In this document: positions 40,307 through 61,732 of the stretch, one piece after another
Position numbering within the stretch: position 1 is the first letter of the stretch
How the letters are laid out: every line of letters begins with the position of its first letter
Origin: Argentina anserina
Lineage: Eukaryota; Streptophyta; Magnoliopsida; Rosales; Rosaceae
Direction: 5' to 3'
Assembly: GCF_933775445.1 (NCBI RefSeq)
Contig: NC_065873.1
Span: forward strand, 17,298,001-17,362,000
Length of the DNA stretch: 64,000 nt
Position numbers and translations under genes: made by a program
Notes under the pieces: model-generated
Seen by the model: only the letters and a program-made list of their open reading frames with translations
Databases searched by the model: none
Told to the model about the DNA's origin: nothing

Positions 40307-40885
40307 TGTTAAACAACGACAAGCGTGGCCCGTGGACCAACTGTACCGATATTGTCCCAACTTAACCACCTCACAAGTGTTGGGTTTTAATCACAAAAGG
40401 CCTCAGTACAATTGGTTATTATCCACCCACTTATAAGCTTTATTTTCTTTGTCACTTCTTAGATGCGGGATCTCTCATCTCCAACACGTCCCCTCACGTG
40501 CAACCTAATTTTTAGGTCTGCACGTGACAGATTAACATCCCACATACTGGGATGAAAGAAACTAAGGTCCAGTAACCAACGACACTTAGTGGTCATCCAA
40601 TCGGAAATCCTCCGATAACATAACAAAGTGGCACCCAACTCGGGTCCACGAAAGATTGGAGGCGCGACTGGAGAGGGACCCGCTCTGATACCATGTTAAA
40701 CAGCGACAAGCGTGGCCCGTTGACCAACTGTACCGATATTGTCCCAACTTAACCACCTCACAGGTGTTGGGTTTTAATCACAAAAGGTCTCGGTACAATT
40801 AGTTATTATCCACCCACTTATAAGCTTTATTTTATTTGTCACTTCTTAGATTTGGGATCTCTACTGCGATCTCTCCTCTCCAATA
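40307..40885 (-). mobile_element. Complete TRIM (miniature LTR retrotransposon) with perfect 5-bp TSD
   Basis: Two direct LTRs, 40307-40486 and 40694-40885, flank a 207-bp interior, and the whole is flanked by AGAAG at 40302-40306 and 40886-40890. On the minus strand the order is LTR (TGTTGGAGA...GTTTAACA; the outer copy starts TATTGGAGA by mutation), PBS TGGTATCAGAGC complementary to initiator tRNA-Met (40693-40682), interior, then the purine-rich tract GTGAGGGGACG, then LTR. No coding capacity. One LTR has a ~10-bp extra segment (CTACTGCGAT). The LTR has no 5S rRNA-like part, so it is not a Cassandra element. The same family forms the ends of the chimeric element at 54491-60190. Confidence 0.9.
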
Positions 40886-52271: not shown

Positions 52272-53043
52272 TAAGTTGTCCTGGAGCCGATATTATTTGG
52301 TTTGAAGGCCAGAAGACATCCAAAGAGCAATGCAGGTGGCGTTTTCGGATTGTGGCCTAAGTGACTCATGAAGTAGAAACTAAGAGTAATGATAGATCTA
52401 ACATCCATCCCAATTTGTTCAACAATGGATACATATGCCGTCAAATGTATTCTCACGCTTGGTTGATGGTTCTAATCTTTTGACAAGTCGGCGAACAATA
52501 TTTATATAATGCTATGATAAACTTATCAAATTTGAGCTTCCATATACATGGTTGGAACTTGGAAAATGCTGCAAATATCTTGCCATGGTTGATTTATGTG
52601 TTTAAGAACTTAAGATTTTTGAATGTGAATGCCAATTTCCGTGGACAACTGTTTCGTTTGGATCAATCATGCTGCTTTTTCATTGGCACCCAAAGAATTA
52701 CAATGACTGTCCAACTTTATTTGCAATTTTATTTAATTCCTGTGGCCTCTAATTGAAACAATCAGCTACCGAATACAAGAATCCATTGCATTTCACAAAA
52801 CTAGAATCGAACTTTACATTTGTATTGGCCATGGGGAAACAAATAGTTCTAACATTATCGAGTGAACAATCAGTCTTTCATTATCAAATAAAGTTCAAGA
52901 CAGTTTCCTCATCAATAGCTAAATGGTACAGTATCCTCTCATCAATTAGCACATCTAGAATGGCTGTGGTGATACTAGTGAATCAGGTGGCGTCACTATT
53001 ATGATCACTACCGATGTTGTCCGAGATCAGGTAGTCATCTAGC
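52272..53043. other. Spacer between convergent PIG-S and NAC genes
   Basis: 3' flank of PIG-S and anonymous AT-rich sequence; no supported gene. Confidence 0.5.
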
Positions 53044-53120
53044 CACGAGCCACGAGCCACGAGCCACGAGCCACGAGCCACGAGCCACGAGCCACGAGCC
53101 ACGAGCCACGAGCCACGAGC
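53044..53120. repeat. Perfect heptamer tandem repeat, CACGAGC x 11
   Basis: Eleven uninterrupted copies of CACGAGC, about 40 bp downstream of the NAC stop codon. The copies are identical, which suggests recent expansion. Confidence 0.95.
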
Positions 53121-53159
53121 CATCGTCATATTGGCTTTCATCTGCCACAGCTGCCTTCA

Positions 53160-54490
53160 TTATTCTGCTGCTGATAAGGCTTCTTTTAACACGTTGTCGT
53201 CAAGCTCATTGTAACTGAACACATTATCATCAAGCTCACTATAGCTGAACACATTATCATCAAACATGCTTGAGCTCATAATAGTAGTACTTTCATCATC
53301 GGGTTCAACCATGTTTGAGTACTCATGAGTAGTGAATCCTTCAGCTTGATCAGACACCCTCATCTCTGCTTCATTAGCGGCATAGTAGAAGTTATTCTCG
53401 GGCAGTGGCTCGGATGGTAATAGTGAATCTGCAGGTGCTTCGTTTTCGGGATCTTGATATCCACATAGTTCTTCTACGGTAAAGAGATCATCAAATGGGA
53501 TTTCATCTTGAAGAGGTGGATTTGCAAGATGGTTTGGCTGATCATTACTGACGGGAGCACTATTGTTAGGTTGACTAAAACGCATAGACTCATAAGCTTC
53601 TACCCTTTCGAATTTGTAAGAATGACTATGAACCATCAGATCATCATCACCGGGAAGCTGCAGTTGATGCTGTTGAAAGTAAGAAAGAACACCAAGAGGG
53701 TTTGGCTGATCATTACTGACGAGATCACTAGGGTTAGCTTGACTAATACTCATAGTCGACTCGTAATCTTCTACCGTTTTATATTCGTCAGAATGACTAG
53801 AAACCATCAGATCATCACGGGGGAGCTGCGCCGGAGCCTGCGGTTGCTGCTCTTGAAAGTAAGAAGGAACACCAAGAGGGCTCGTCTGATGACCGTTGTC
53901 AGTATGTGAGTTAGGGTTTGGCTCGTAAGTTTCTACCCTTTGAGGTACGTAACAAACACTAGAAACCATCATATCATTATGTTTGTCTACCCTTGAAACC
54001 TTTTTACGGGAGGACCTTAGAGAGACATTCATCTGATCCTCAATAAGTTTTCTCTTCCGGTCTTTGCGTATCCGGCATAACACAAGATCAAGTTCATTAA
54101 AAGATTTGGTAGTCAATGAATCATCAATCCTGTACTCAATCATAATCCAAGAACCATTCTCATTCGGTTCATTGGGCACGTAATGAAACCTTTTCCACGA
54201 TCCTAAGACATTTTTCTTTGAATCATATACTTTGGCTCCTGAGGTGTCACATTTCCAGGTGCCAGAACCTGTTGCGCGCACCACGTTTGAACCATTGTCA
54301 CTCACTTTCTTCAATTCAGTAAAGAAAAAGAGGTCTTCACCCTGGTTCAGTCTTGGACCACCAAACCTATTCCAAAGATCACATGGTTCCATTTTGTAAA
54401 CATTGCAGTTATTCATAACCCTAAAATCACACTTGAACGGTTTACCGCACACCTTGTTTAGAAGATAATATCCCAAAAGTTCTTGGTTAG
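53160..54490 (-). pseudogene. NAC transcription factor, main (3') part, split by a retroelement
   Basis: From 54485 to the stop at 53160 an open frame of 441 residues continues the NAC domain: QELLGYYLLNKVCGKPF (subdomain A end), MEPCDLWNRFGGPRLNQGED (B-C), WKCDTSGAKVYDSKKNVLGS (D) and SWIMIEYRID (E). The C-terminal half is Pro/Gln/Asp-rich, with two similar NPLGVxSYFQ segments and three LDDNVFSY-like repeats near the end, fitting an activation region. There is no ATG where the domain should begin; the first 21 codons lie at 60191-60253 beyond a 5.7-kb insertion. Subdomain D lacks the usual GYWKATGKD wording, so this is a divergent NAC. The long intact frame is odd for a dead gene. Confidence 0.88.
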
Positions 54491-54669
54491 TGTTGGAGAG
54501 CAGAGATCACAATCTAAGAAGTGACAAAAAAAATAAAGCTTATAAGTGGGTAGATAATACCCAATTGTACCGAGGCCTTTTGTGATTAAGACCAAACACA
54601 TGTGAGGTGGCTAAGTTGAGACAATATCGGTACAGTTGGTTCACGGGCCACGCTTGTCGTTGTTTAACA
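54491..54669 (+). repeat. 5' LTR (TRIM family) of the chimeric element
   Basis: 179 bp, TGTTGGAGAG...TGTTTAACA, directly followed without spacer by the PBS TGGTATCAGAGC. Homologous to 60011-60190 and, reversed, to both LTRs of the TRIM at 40307-40885. Confidence 0.9.
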
Positions 54670-54681
54670 TGGTATCAGAGC

Positions 54682-55342
54682 ATTCTTGCTCTGTTTCCTG
54701 TTTTTTTTTTCTGTTTTTTCCGACCGGTCGCCCTCTCGTGCTCACCGCTGCCCTCTGGCGCCTCTCGACGTCGCCGTCGACCTTCCGCTGCTCCTCACCG
54801 GTGCTCATCGACCCGCAGTCGCCGCCCGCTTCGCACTCTGACCCCAAGTCGTTGTCCTCCGCGCTCCGTTCTTCCGGCTCTGTCACCGCTGCTCCCCCCC
54901 CGACACCGTTGCTCCTCACCTGCGCTCATCGACCCGCAGTCGCCACCCGCTCTGCAGTCGACCCGACGTTGCTGTCCCTTCGCCGCTGCTGCTGCCCCCG
55001 ACGTCGTCGTCCTCTCACTCCGCAGTCGCCGCTCGGACCCAAAGTCGTTGTCCGTTCTTTTTTCTCGAGTCGGCCTCTCTCCGCACCGCCCGACCCGGTT
55101 TTATTTCGCCCCGACCCGGCCCAACTTTGACCCGGCCCAACTTTGACCCGGCCCAGCCCTGATTCAGCGTGACCCGACCTGGTCAACTCGACCCGACCCG
55201 GTCAACTCTATCTGACCCGGTTCGGCTAGATTCAGGCAATGCATACTCACCGTCAGTGTAAGTGCACCGGAGACAGATTGTTCTCCATTTTTTGTGTTTT
55301 TTTACTGTCTAATCTCTGATTTTTTACATTGTTTCTTTTTCA
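54682..55342 (+). other. GC-rich Copia leader
   Basis: The stretch between PBS and gag is strikingly C-rich for this window. A block around CTCATCGACCCGCAGTCGCC occurs twice (near 54803 and 54924), and GACCCGGCCCAACTTT recurs near 55112-55148 within a run of GACCCG-type motifs. Long open frames here are by-products of the composition. Confidence 0.6.
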
Positions 55343-58300
55343 ATGAGTTCTGGACACGAAACGGAGGGTTCTCAGCTCCCTGATGTTCCGACCTTCAAAG
55401 TATCTGTCAAAGGCTCTGACAGTGGTTCATTTGGGGGCGCCAAACTCAACGGAACCAATTTTCGTAAATGAAAATGACTTATGGCTGCTCATCTTCGAGG
55501 CATGCACAAGATGGGACATGTCACTGGTGTCACTAAGGCTCCTAGTCCTGAGGATATTGTTGCTTACAATAAATGAGACGACGACGATAGTCTTGTCATG
55601 TCCGTCTTGTGGAAAGCTATGAATAATGAGATAGTTGATCTGGTGGAGGCATGTGCCACTACGCAGGCAATATGGGAGACACTGGCCGACTTATATACTA
55701 ATGACTCTGATTTCATACAGGTTCATGAGTTAATATGCACATGTTTGGCAATATACCAGGATGGGCAACCGGTGGCGCACTATTTCACCAAACTAAAGAA
55801 TATTTGGGCTGAGATTGATGTGAAACGTCCTTTGCATGATTAAAAATCAAGAGGATATTGTTTGGTACCAAAAGGAGAAGGAGCTTGAACGAGTTCACCA
55901 TTTCCTGAAAGGTCTTGATGCAAAGCATACCAGTGCGAAAGGCGAATTGCTCCGAATGACCGAATCACCTAGCCTACTCACCGCTTTCACCTATATCCGA
56001 AAGGATGAGTCTCAGCTGGAGAGTATTCTTCAGGCACCGGCTGTCGTTTCCAGTCTTACTGTTCATGCTCGATCTCCGGCAACACCCCTTCCGCAAGCAA
56101 CTTCTGCTCCCCTTCCGCAAGCAACTTCCGCTCCCCTTCATCGACAAAGACCACCACCAGGCTTCGGGAATTAGCATTGCCCTCCTTGCTCTTATTGCCA
56201 TGATACTAACCATACTCGTGTGACCTGTTGGAAATTGTATCCACACCTTAGGCGTAAGAGGCCTAATTATCGCCCCAGGAAAAAGCAGCTCTTCAATTAG
56301 TTCCGGAACCAGATATCTATGGTGTGGTTGGGTATGATCATCATACTGCTGGAGGAGCACCTACAACCTCGGTCGTTGGCTGTGGTCAAATTGGTATGGC
56401 TTTCAATATTTCTCACTCTGTTAGTTTTGATACATGGATTATTGATTCTGGTGCATCTGATCATATGACTTATGACAAATATTATTTTACCGTATTGTCC
56501 CCTCCACCTGTACCCTATGTAACTAATGCTAATGGTGAGGCCTTCCCCGTGTTAGGGACAGGGTCCGTTCGTATTACTCCCACCATAGAGCTTCACAATG
56601 TACTCTATGTACCTGCTTTATCTCATCATTTGATATCTGTTCCCCAATTGAACGCTGACGCTCAGTGTTCTGTGACCTTTTTTCCTATGTATGTGATATT
56701 TCAGGATCTTCTCACTGGAAGGGTAATTGGTCGGGGGTCTATGAGGGGCCGTTTGTTTCATCTAGATCTGACATACGCTGGGAAAAAACCAGGGGGACAG
56801 TCTCGGACCGCTTTACTCTCCACTTATGACAAGCTAAGTGAAGTTTGGTTATGACATCGTCGCTTAGGACATCCATCTTTTAGTGTTATGAAAAAATCCA
56901 TGCCTACTTTGTTTATTAGTGTGGACGAGTGTTTTTTATGTTGTGAGACATGTGTTTTGGGTAAGAGTCATCGATCTACTTATTCCCCTAGTACTTCTAC
57001 TAAAAGTTTTCTTCCTTTTGAATTAATTCATTCTGATGTTTGGGGACCCTCTAAAGAGTCTACTGTGTCCGGAATGCGATATTTTGTGTCATTTATTGAT
57101 GATTGCACACGTCTTTCATGGATTGTTCTTCTTAAAAATAAAGATGAGGTTTTTCCAACTTTTGGTGCCTTCCATATCTTTGTCCAAACACAATATAATG
57201 CCACCATTCGAGTTCTTCGTTCTGATAATGGGGGGGGGGGAATATGTGAATCATGTCTTTCAGGAGTTCTTTAACACACACAGAATTGTTCATCAAACAA
57301 TGTGTCCTTACACACCTGAGAAAAATGGGGTTTTTGAAAGAAAAAATCGCCATTTACTTGATATGGCTCGGTGTATTCTTTTTAGTGCCCATATGCCTAA
57401 ATACCTTTGGGGTGATGCTGTCATTACTTCCGCCCACCTCATTAATCGTCTTCCATCTCGTGTCCTTCAGGGGAAAGTTTCATATGTGGTGCTTGCATCT
57501 CATGTCTCATTACCCTCCTTTTATAATCTTCATGCCTGTGTTTTCGGTTGTGTTGCTTTTGCTTATTTTCCACAACATCAGCGTTCTAAGTTGAAAAGGG
57601 TACCGGTGCTATCATCCCCCAACCCGGAAGTACTATGTCACTATGGATGTTACATTTTTTATGACATGAGTTATTTTCCCTCTTCTGATACTGCTCTTCA
57701 GGGGGAGAATTCATATTTTGAAGAGCTGTATCATGGAGAGGGGGAGACAAGTGAGCTAGTCGATATGGTAACAGGTTCCGTTGAGATTACCAATGTGTCA
57801 GCTACACAGGCACCACCAAATGTCGTCACTCCAGAGATTCAGGCACCAGAAGCTGACAACACAACTGCCCCTCATGTCTCCTGTACAACTGTTTATACCC
57901 CTGACCAATGCTCTCATGGTACAGAAGATCACTCATCTGAGGTTAGTAATTTTATTAAGGCTAATAATAGACAATATGTTTTGCCAAATATGTCTACTCG
58001 GGGTCAACCAACAAAAAAATATGAACATACCTTTCAGACTAAAGCCAAGTATCCTGTGGCAAATTTTATATCTACCAAAAGATTATCTAAGTCATATGAG
58101 TCATTTGTGAATCAAATATCTACTGTATCAGTACCTAACAAAGTGCAGGATGCATTGAGAGATCCAAAATGGAGGAAAGCAATGGAGAAAGAGATGAAAG
58201 CATTACAAAAGAACAATACTTGGGAGCTTGTACATCCACCATATGGCAAGAAGGCTGTAACATGTCGTTGGGTGTTTATAGTGAAGCATAATCTAGATGG

Positions 58301-59603
58301 GTCAGTAAGCCGGTATAAATCATGCCTAGTAGTGAAGGGGTTCATCCAGACATATGGCATAGACTATGATGAGACATTTGCACCTGTTGCAAAAATAAAC
58401 ACTATCCGGGTATTGCTCTCTATCATTGCTAACTTGAACTGGCCACTTAGGCAGTTTGATGTTAAGAATGCATTTCTTCATAGAGAACTAACAGAGGAAG
58501 TATATATGGATCTTCCGCCTGGATATGTGGTCGCTTCTCCAACTACCTCTGTATGCAGATTGAGAAAGTCTTTGTATGGTCTTAAACAATCATCTCGTGA
58601 TTGGTTTGGAAGATTCTTACAATTCATGAGGAAAATTGGCTATAGACAGAGTAATTCAGACCACACGTTATTTCTCAAACATCAACAAGAGAAGATAACA
58701 ACCCTAATTATAAATGTTGATGATATGGTAGTTACTATGAATGATACTGTTAAGGTTGATAGATTACATAAACTGCTTGCCACAGAGTTTGAGATGATGG
58801 ACCTAAGTACACTCAAGTACTTCTTAGGCATTGAAGTAGCCTGAGAAAGTGAAGGTATCTATATGTGACAGAGGAAGTACATTCTTGATCTACTAACAGA
58901 GACATGTATGTTGGACTGCACTCCCATTGATACTCCTATTGAGCAAAACCATCGGTTAGCAGAGTACCCAGATCAAGTCCCTACTGAAAAACCTTGTTAT
59001 CAGAGGCTAGTTGGACGCCTAATTTATCTATCACATACCAGACCAGATGTTGCGTATGCAATAAGTATAGTGAGTAAGTTCATGCATAATCCCAGTGAGG
59101 ACCACATGGATGATGTTGTAAGGATTTTGAGGTACTTGAAGTCAGCTCCGAGGAGAGGAGTAATGTTCTCTAATCACAATAATATCCTTGAAATTTGTGG
59201 CTTCACATATGCAGACTGGGTTGGAAATATTACAGATCGGAGATCCACATCAGGGTACCTTACCTTTGTTGGGGGTAATCTTTTTACATGGAAGAGTAAG
59301 AAATAAAAGATGGTAGCATGATCTAGTGGTGAAGCAGAATACAAAGGTATGGCTCAGGGAGTGTGCGAATTGTTATGGCTTAGAAATTTGCTACAAGATT
59401 TGGGTATTAAGCCTAAATGTGCTATGCAGCTGTACTGTGACAACAAGACAGCCATTGATATTTCACATAATCATGTGCAACATGATCGTACAAAACATGT
59501 GAAGGTTGATTGTCACTTTATAAAAGAGAAGATAGACGCGAAGATCATTAGTTTTCTTTTTGTTTCTACAGAAGAGCAACTTGCCGATATGCTCACAAAA
59601 TGA
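55343..59603 (+). pseudogene. Copia gag-pol polyprotein, degraded
   Basis: Gag starts at ATG 55343. A zinc knuckle CSYCHDTNHTRVTC lies near 56190-56232. The protease motif IIDSGASDHM follows at about 56440. The integrase core carries HSDVWG, SDNGG and the NGVFERKNR region (57020-57450). Reverse transcriptase shows FDVKNAFLHRELTEEVYMDL and GLKQSSRDW, with its catalytic YVDD changed to NVDD. RNase H has ADWVGN, CDNKTAI and a final ADMLTK. Premature stops include TGA at 55469 and 55574 (expected Trp), TGA at 58842 and TAA at 59305. A run of 11 G at 57230-57240 shifts frame inside the integrase. This gene order (integrase before RT) defines Copia. It cannot produce active enzymes. Confidence 0.9.
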
Positions 59604-59657
59604 GTTTTTATGATTCACTTAGCAAGTTTGGCATGGTTGATATGTATGCACCAACTT

Positions 59658-59787
59658 AAGGGGGGGTGTCGGCGTGAATCCGGCGCAAATCACAGAGTAA
59701 TTAGTGTTAGATTAGGCTATATATTTGTTAAATCTGTGTATGAATTCATTAAGCAATAATCAATATAATTCCAGTTGGTATCAGAGC
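59658..59787 (+). repeat. Copia PPT, single 107-bp LTR and PBS
   Basis: AAGGGGGGG (59658-59666) is followed by TGTCGGCGTGAATCC...AATTCCA (59667-59773), a GT spacer, and TGGTATCAGAGC (59776-59787). This is the end of the Copia element, followed, unexpectedly, by a PBS as if a new copy began. No matching Copia LTR exists at the 5' side. Confidence 0.8.
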
Positions 59788-60190
59788 GGGTCCCTCTCCA
59801 GTCGCGCTTCCAATTTGTGTATGGACTCGAGTTGGGTGCCACTTTGTCATGGGCCCATGATGGGTGCCATTATCATGTCATCGGAGGGTTTTCCAATTGG
59901 ATGGTCACCAAGTGTCGTTGGTTACTGGACCTTGGTTTATTTTATCCCAGTGTGTGGGATGTTAATTTGTCACGTGCAGACCTAAAAATTAGGTTGCACG
60001 TGAGGGGGCGTGTTGGAGAGGAGAGATCCCACATCTAAGAAGTGACAAATAAAATAAAGCTTATAAGTGAGTGGATAATACCTAATTGTACCGAGGCCTT
60101 TTGTGATTAAAACCCAACACCTGTGAGGTGGCTAAGTTGGGACAATATCGGTACAGTTGGTCCACGGGCCACGCTTGTCGCTGTTTAACA
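59776..60190 (+). mobile_element. TRIM interior and 3' LTR closing the chimeric element
   Basis: From the PBS on, GGGTCCCTCTCCAGTCGCGC and the following ~200 bp match the reversed interior of the TRIM at 40487-40693. They end in GTGAGGGGGCG (PPT) and the 180-bp LTR 60011-60190 (TGTTGGAGAG...TGTTTAACA). Confidence 0.88.
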
Positions 60191-60253
60191 ATTAGTTGGA
60201 AGAAACTTGAAACCTGATGGAAGGTTGAGACGAGGAACGCACGAGAACGCCAT
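60191..60253 (-). pseudogene. NAC transcription factor, first 21 codons, separated by the retroelement
   Basis: Minus-strand ATG at 60253 begins MAFSCVPRLNLPSGFKFLPT and one Asn, ending at the insertion point. LPSGFKFLPTN is the start of NAC subdomain A (usual form LPPGFRFHPTD). The next codon in the same frame is at 54485-54483, on the other side of the insertion, after the duplicated target site. Upstream, TAATATATACC near 60447-60457 on the gene strand could be the TATA box. Confidence 0.85.
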
Positions 60254-61732
60254 AAGCCGATCAAATCAGGAAATCCTCAAGAAAAGAAAGTTGTCTTCTT
60301 GATGGGAGAAAGGTAGAAGATCTCTAGGGATTTAATGAAGAGATTCTGGAGATGAAATTTTTTTGAAGCTTTGAGAGATTTCTTGATCAGAAAGACACGA
60401 TTGAATACATACATTGCAAGTAGTTCACTACTGTCACCAGGACTGGGGTATATATTAGGCCTAGATTTAGAGTTTCTAATTCTCCGCCACCATTATATGG
60501 CAACTCATATGCATGTCAATGAGTCAATCCATTTCACACAGGTAATGGTATTACAATCCAGGTCTAACAAGGATTATATTTCGAACCCGTAACTTCCGCT
60601 GCTTGCCCTAAAAAACAGGAGAACAAAATAATATCGTATTTTAGGTTTTATTTGTTTGTTTTTTCAATTAAAAATTTTATTTGGTTTTTCTCTTTTGTGA
60701 ATGTGGGTGTATCTAGAAACCAGGAGTCTCTTTCTAATTTTTATTAAAAAAAAATATAAAAAAAGAAAGAGAATTTTTTTAGATGCGCTTGGCTTGTCAA
60801 CCCTTTGGTTCCAGCACGTCCATTTTCAATCGTTTAGCCTTTAATATGTTTATGATTAGTGTTTATCTGGAACATACTGTTGATTGATAACAGTTAAGGG
60901 ATCCAACCGACTTCAAATTATCTGATCAGTTTTCGCAGAAAACATCTCGAGGTGAGATTCAAGAGTTGAACCGGCTGAAGGATCTGCACATGTGGAGGGA
61001 ATATGGAACACCCTCGTTTACATGCTCAATTCTGAAAACTCAATTGAGAGGGCTTAGAGGTGAGACTTGAGAATTGGACCAGCGTTTAGAGGGCTTTGTG
61101 TTGTATCACTTTATGGACTGAATGATAAAAAGAACAATTTAGAAATTGAACATAAAGGAAACAATGTTCTAGATCCTTTACCTGAGCTTCATTGTTGGTA
61201 TATATGTATAATGTTGTGTTCGAACTGTATGTTCTAGGGGACAAAACGTCTCTTGTAATACGACCATATCATTAAATGTCTACTTTCTACCAAGAAAACA
61301 CGTCTCAAAATTCTAGCCGCTATATCTATGTGCCACACCACCATCATTTTGGCCAAACAGTGAAACACACTAAAGAATATCATGATCAAAGGTGCAACAG
61401 ATTCCCATCTCAGATGGTTAATTGATATCCCTACATTAGAAGAACTAAAGAACCACTCAAGTGTGGTGGAGTTCGGAAGAAGAGACACAGGCAATAAATT
61501 CAGTTAACTTTTTTTCTAATTTTCCAGATGTTTGAAGCTAAAATTTAACGATGTTTATATAAATAATGAGCTCATTGAGGCCTTACAGCATTGCAACTAG
61601 AGTAAAAACAAAATGGAAGGCGGGGTAAAAGAAAATATTACACGCAGGTTGATACCAATCAAAAGATCTACTAGATTAAGTCATAATAAACACCATGAGA
61701 TTGTGCACATAAACTATCCACACCCTCAACTG
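60254..61732. other. NAC promoter/leader and spacer
   Basis: The first ~250 bp are the probable leader and core promoter of the interrupted NAC gene. From about 60600 to 61732 I see no gene; the last part is probably the 3' UTR of the SAM-domain gene. Confidence 0.45.

Follow-up and report, generated by a model that had tools for sequence, protein, structure and literature searches.

In this work, we found that a terminal-repeat retrotransposon in miniature (TRIM) of Argentina anserina has been joined with Copia retroelements before integration into the genome. The element under study occupies positions 54491-60190 of a 64,000-nucleotide stretch of DNA (hereafter the window; C2:17298001-17362000) and contains a Copia interior and one Copia long terminal repeat (LTR) framed by parts of a TRIM, with the same primer-binding site (PBS) at both joints. 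For this element, the origin that we consider probable is a chimeric cDNA, formed through intermolecular transfer of the second strand at the PBS common to TRIM and Copia and then integrated as one insertion.

Joining before integration is documented by two loci elsewhere in the single assembly analyzed (237 Mb). L050 (C6:913375-913892) consists of a Copia LTR, PBS, TRIM interior, and TRIM LTR, with the joint exactly at the PBS, and is flanked by a perfect target-site duplication (TSD; CGATC). The left end of L076/L081 (C5:14422399-14427808) consists of a Copia LTR and leader, and its right end of a Copia polypurine tract (PPT), a Copia LTR, and two successive TRIM units (both ends read); the TSD is again perfect (TCACC). 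Between the two Copia LTRs of this element, 110 of 110 aligned sites are identical, apart from a 14-bp gap and a lost last base. Because the unlike ends of these heteroterminal elements are flanked by perfect 5-bp TSDs, the parts were joined before integration and a single integration took both ends; insertion into an integrated element gives no such pair of unlike ends bordered by one and the same TSD. These structures suggest that TRIM and Copia are copied side by side and at times stitched into one DNA.

Structure of the window element

All parts of the element lie on the plus strand, in the order that the sequence-only reading had given. The left TRIM LTR (54491-54669; 179 bp) is followed by the first joint, the PBS TGGTATCAGAGC (54670-54681), and then by the Copia leader and gag-pol region (54682-59652), the Copia PPT (59653-59666), and the lone Copia LTR (59667-59775; 109 bp, ending in CCAGT). 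The limits of this LTR were set by TSDs at other loci (L048, L053, and L049), which place AGT or ACT at the ends of these Copia LTRs. The second joint, again the exact PBS 12-mer (59776-59787), leads into a TRIM interior (59788-59999; 212 bp), which was assigned to the long subfamily by comparison with other TRIM copies, and the element closes with the TRIM PPT (60000-60010; both PPTs were read from the sequence) and the right TRIM LTR (60011-60190; 180 bp). The outer flanks, GTTAG (54486-54490) and ATTAG (60191-60195), form a TSD matching at four of five positions. The divergence of the outer LTRs, which the reading had proposed to measure, is 0.070 (167 of 179 positions the same, 93.3%). These LTRs are the sole long direct repeat in 53500-61500 (158 nt in register), and four further repeat families in that interval (54-63 nt) are located away from them.

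As had also been claimed, the identity between the two joints is limited to the 12 nt of the PBS, with unlike bases on both sides (TTTAACA/PBS/ATTC at the first, TTCCAGT/PBS/GGGT at the second), and both LTR families adjoin the PBS with no spacer. The only other exact 12-mer in the window, where 0.25 matches at up to one mismatch are expected by chance in that search, lies on the minus strand (40682-40693). It belongs to an ordinary TRIM of the same family (40307-40885, minus strand; short subfamily), which has CTTCT on both sides and serves as a control with the normal order of LTR, PBS, interior, and LTR. A BLAST search of the whole window with the Copia LTR returned only the LTR itself and stretches of 12-22 nt (E 0.75), confirming that no second Copia LTR is present in the window. 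Ordinary nesting, by comparison, leaves two LTRs of the insert and an inner TSD.

The outer parts have the short LTRs, PBS, short non-coding interior, PPT, and many further genomic copies that characterize a TRIM. The Copia interior, which matches Copias at other loci, is of the Ty1-copia type, with a copia-type gag and an RVT_2 pol: four of its six stop-free pieces match Pfam families (Retrotran_gag_2, Pol_BBD, gag_pre-integrs, and RVT_2; PF14223, PF22936, PF13976, and PF07727), and the two 3' pieces have no Pfam match. Since stops and frame changes interrupt the reading frames, the gag-pol is not complete as a working unit. The proposal that the chimera had moved as a unit, and that the TRIM had thereby gained a full gag-pol, is unsupported on both counts, as the first junction occurs exactly once in the genome and the gag-pol is broken.

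TRIM joints across the genome

The locus had been treated as singular, and a search for copies of its junctions had been proposed. The 27-nt pattern of the first junction (TRIM LTR end, PBS, and Copia leader) has a single exact match in the 237-Mb genome, namely, the window, and no second copy of the exact chimera was found by this search. At three mismatches it matches one chimera (L010/L053) and one Copia without TRIM parts (L011/L054). The pattern of the second junction, for which three mismatches were allowed, has six matches at two or fewer, and all six are chimeras, the window included. The TRIM LTR end and PBS are followed by a base other than G at 20 sites (eight chimeric, nine ordinary TRIMs with a changed base, and three others), and the PBS and TRIM interior are preceded by a base other than A at eight sites (six chimeric and two ordinary). 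With A in that position there are 102 sites, at least one of which is chimeric (L077); a foreign LTR precedes at least seven of the 110 exact starts of PBS and TRIM interior, the 102 sites having been inspected in part. Several candidates were rejected: TRIMs with a changed base after the PBS (L058, L061, L062, L064, L066, and L068-L071) or before it (L029 and L088), pattern matches that proved ordinary or other (L056, L072, and L074), the Copia without TRIM parts (L054), and a candidate chosen by length whose PBS region is that of an ordinary Copia (L089; C7:15242095-15247606).

The window element lies at one of at least 15 loci with TRIM joints at or near the PBS, and further chimeras have their own TSDs at other loci. 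At the 15 loci found (the window, L033, L048, L049, L050, L051, L052, L053, L055, L059, L063, L067, L073, L076, and L077), the TRIM is joined to foreign sequence at the PBS or within about 10 nt of it. The partner is another retroelement at 14 of them, either a Copia of various LTR types or a second TRIM-like family, and the stretch at L067 is not known to be a retroelement. The chimeras share one rule, in which an LTR of X is followed by a unit of Y and a unit of X, and this occurs in both orders. TSDs are perfect in six of the eight chimeras tabulated and match at four of five positions in the other two (the window and L077).

Homoterminal forms include Copia-TRIM-Copia at L048 (C1:5451747-5457527; TSD GAAAA), L053 (C3:33301661-33307346; TSD GTGAA), and L077 (C6:34408813-34414474; TSD TCATG/CCATG), all with both ends read; the middles of these three and of L076 were read at most in part. 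L049 (C4:5626002-5627137; TSD ATTTC), likewise read at both ends, has the same order with a deleted core, and at L055 (C2:5790778-5791546; TSD TACTG) the TRIM lies inside a second TRIM-like element (B) with its own LTRs, giving B-TRIM-B. At L051, L052, L063, L073, and L033, which were read near the joint, a TRIM unit stands ahead of Copia sequence. A search with the 5' LTR of L052 found no 3' LTR of this element nearby. L033 was first spotted through its TRIM match alone, and its partner has a copia-type gag on one of two pieces. L067 is a TRIM with flanks TATCC/TATCT and 571 bp of foreign sequence after the PBS (nt 1520-2090; C6:2082345-2082915). This low-copy stretch has a 98% copy at C6:37094137-37094711 and a partial 84% copy at C7:11533529-11533850, and may be captured host or leader sequence. 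L059 (C2:14501393 region, nt 900-1560) is a patchwork Copia, in which the leader passes into the TRIM LTR at nt 80 and the TRIM piece exits into gag.

Tandem TRIMs of the same family were also seen at C1:1924803-1926673, C7:23402355-23403310, and C3:31859496-31860449, and the C1 site has TRIM copies of opposite orientation close together. In the rejected candidate L072 (C6:33860970 region, nt 1350-1520), the TRIM interior is preceded by the PBS, TTTTAACA, and, farther out, an inverted piece similar by eye to the second TRIM-like family found at L055. Other repeats of the window are a perfect 7-bp tandem repeat (AGCCACG, 11.7 copies; 53041-53122) and, upstream of the chimera, repeats 162-180 bp apart and 73-87% alike (53525-53979).

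Proposed strand transfer, DNA-level capture, and independent births

In the normal second jump of reverse transcription, plus-strand strong-stop DNA, consisting of the LTR and the tRNA-copied PBS, pairs with the PBS end of the minus-strand cDNA. If TRIM and Copia RNAs were packaged together, TRIM strong-stop DNA could anneal instead to a Copia minus-strand cDNA at its PBS end, and extension would proceed across the Copia interior, PPT, LTR, and the tRNA still bound to the Copia cDNA. The new PBS end that results would anneal to TRIM minus-strand cDNA and be extended over the TRIM interior and LTR. Both transfers together would produce LTR(X)-[Y unit]-[X unit], joined through a PBS in both places. 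In the window element, X would be the TRIM and Y the Copia; L048, L053, and L055 would follow the same scheme with the TRIM as Y. A single transfer to the cDNA of another element would give X LTR, PBS, Y interior, and Y LTR, which corresponds to L050, and jumps between copies of one TRIM would yield tandem TRIMs, which are also present in this genome. The exit at L059 falls exactly at the 3' end of the PBS despite the gag acceptor, as expected if the tRNA-copied PBS were a DNA end, and suggests that it was one. By analogy with animal elements, host alternative end joining (alt-EJ) may help at the PBS.

The alternative that fares best is capture at the DNA level, in which a one-LTR Copia circle or linear cDNA would enter an integrated TRIM at the PBS without integrase, through single-strand annealing, alt-EJ, or crossover. 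The sequence-only reading had offered both PBS strand transfer and capture of a one-LTR circle, and both are reasonable. L050 and L076 show joining before integration, and L077 and, less surely, L033 look like DNA-level crossovers. One crossover in the shared block would yield both junctions of the window and would explain the homoterminal forms as well. The consulted part of a review describes integrase-independent insertion of Tf1 at the PBS/PPT and one-LTR circles produced by PBS-guided alt-EJ (PMC12786077). At L077, the 5' Copia LTR has a TRIM-like inner end (TTTAACA) and the inner TRIM LTR a Copia-like end (TTCAACT), whereas the outer 3' Copia LTR keeps the unexchanged end TTTCAACT; the two Copia LTRs are alike at 107 of 118 positions over the part compared. 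Reciprocal exchange upstream of the PBS accounts for these ends better than strand transfer does. The LTR ends beside the PBS at L033 resemble this exchange, although a single LTR was read there and the case is weaker. These patterns suggest a second, DNA-level route at L077 and, less surely, at L033. However, such capture cannot yield heteroterminal insertions with perfect TSDs, and at the window it requires recombination on a 12-nt match. As the origin of the window element, we regard it as possible but doubtful.

Several observations weigh against strand transfer as the origin of the window element or as a general rule. Taken alone, the window element is equally compatible with an existing TRIM that a Copia circle or linear cDNA entered later, guided by the PBS, and the two routes are inseparable for this element on the present evidence. 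Its TSD has one mismatch, and its two TRIM LTRs are not mutual nearest relatives on a tree, which is a weak signal. The pairing of these LTRs as a test of a single event was uninformative, since some ordinary TRIM LTR pairs also fail to pair. The exchanged LTR ends at L077 and L033 are not a product of simple strand transfer. Some joints are imperfect: 10 nt of the LTR end and PBS are gone at the first TRIM joint of L076, the second PBS is gone at L049, and L051 has lost 28 nt of the TRIM LTR together with the second PBS. In addition, most search queries included the PBS, so the sample is biased toward PBS joints.

The amplification of a single chimeric founder, from which all copies would descend, is very improbable. 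Consistent with such a family, the Copia-TRIM-Copia order is common to L048, L053, and L077, the TRIM units of L048 and L051 pair with support of 86/82, and the nearest unit is also chimeric for three of 13 chimeric units (L048, L076b, and L077, to which the shortened unit of L051 is nearer by 0.1-0.9 points). Against it, the chimeric TRIM units are dispersed among ordinary TRIMs of two subfamilies, with an ordinary unit nearest by identity for nine of 13 and a tie for one (L063). A 28-bp shorter TRIM interior was dropped as a mark of common descent, as it represents a TRIM subfamily with many further copies. The partner Copia LTRs are mostly unlike: among 55 pairs of 11 pieces, three of which had arbitrary starts (L052, L073, and L059), 52 are 43-74% alike and three 81-89%. 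That the first junction has just one exact match also speaks against a founder. For LTRs of the L053/L077 type, eight of 13 non-chimeric pairs are spaced 5.05-5.18 kb, compared with 5.52-5.55 kb in L053 and L077, and copies without a TRIM unit appear to be commoner, judging from length and from the reading of L089 alone.

The tree comprised 62 TRIM units, 13 of them chimeric, and its ordinary units are a partial sample mostly chosen by likeness to the window or L048. The chimeric units need 11 label changes on this tree, compared with a mean of 12.0 after shuffling (126 of 500 shuffles were as low), and its starred branches force at least three chimera origins, with low support overall (four of 59 inner branches starred). 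Because the chimeric TRIM units scatter among ordinary units, sequence relationships favor repeated independent births. The LTR distances within the same element run from 0.020 to 0.0995 (L048 0.020, L053 0.025, L055 0.044, the window 0.070, L049 0.074, and L077 0.0995, the last from partial LTRs), so the chimeras were born at different times. Misassembly, or a nested Copia insertion that lost one LTR, is scarcely credible, since PBS joints occur at 15 loci with different flanks, six of eight tabulated with perfect TSDs, and both ends of the deletion would need to coincide exactly with the PBS.

Significance and comparison with known systems

Which autonomous element moves a TRIM is a standing question; in the consulted part of one survey, no coding relative was found for 278 of 289 TRIM subfamilies (Gao, 2016; PMC4717578). 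The chimeras name candidate helpers, and a DNA with a Copia end, a TRIM end, and a perfect TSD is strong evidence for one integrase serving both. The chimera set may also be used as a natural assay for second-strand transfer in plants, and PBS chimerism represents a route for a coding-free element to gain coding sequence in one step. We give about even chances to a broader proposal: second-strand transfer between unlike co-packaged LTR elements would be regular at a shared initiator-tRNA PBS, heteroterminal cDNAs would integrate normally, and the Copia lineage found in a chimera would supply the integrase of the TRIM. In that case, the genome would record, in its PBS chimeras, which TRIMs are packaged by which autonomous elements.

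Precedents exist for template-switch complexes, for tandem TRIMs, and for end joining at the PBS, and the following comparisons refer to the consulted parts of the papers cited. Among the open-licence PMC papers listed, judged mostly by titles and the beginnings of abstracts, we found no report of TRIM-Copia PBS chimeras or of cross-family heteroterminal insertions, which falls short of proving their absence. According to one review, the second-jump step of animal elements relies on host alt-EJ factors acting on PBS microhomology, and plants have the pathway (PMC12786077). As proposed for our chimeras, cDNA strands are joined or insertions targeted through PBS microhomology, and tandems result, but those cases are animal and yeast elements, with no mention of a TRIM-Copia fusion. 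Like our proposed mechanism, the within-family recombinants of Onsen (PMC5668417) and mini-Tnt1 (PMC2923131) involve template switching between plant Copia RNAs; they differ in that they join close homologues, mostly through first-jump LTR switches, and have no chained units.

Tandemly arrayed TRIMs, with LTR-PBS-interior units head to tail, are common (Gao, 2016; PMC4717578), Cassandra forms similar head-to-tail arrays for which template switching was offered as a cause (PMC7215508), and the pear TRIM Pbr118 has five complex elements, four with TSDs (PMC4668562). The window element likewise has units chained head to tail, and tandems of this TRIM exist in the genome. Unlike these arrays of one repeated element, its second unit is a Copia, which sets it apart from tandem TRIMs.

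Complex LTR elements with three LTRs, two cores, a flanking TSD, and highly alike outer LTRs were attributed to intermolecular template switching (Sabot and Schulman, 2007; PMC1950507), and the same paper mentions VejuL and BARE2 as chimeric elements derived from RNAs packaged together. The window element similarly has an internal LTR (Copia; 59667-59775) and two interiors (Copia and TRIM). Its TSD matches at four of five positions, with perfect TSDs in six of the eight tabulated chimeras, and its outermost LTRs are 93.3% identical and not nearest neighbors. The published complexes arose within one family (Angela, Squiq, and Opie), and the model places the switch at R in the first jump. In contrast, the joints described here lie at the PBS between unlike families and include heteroterminal forms.

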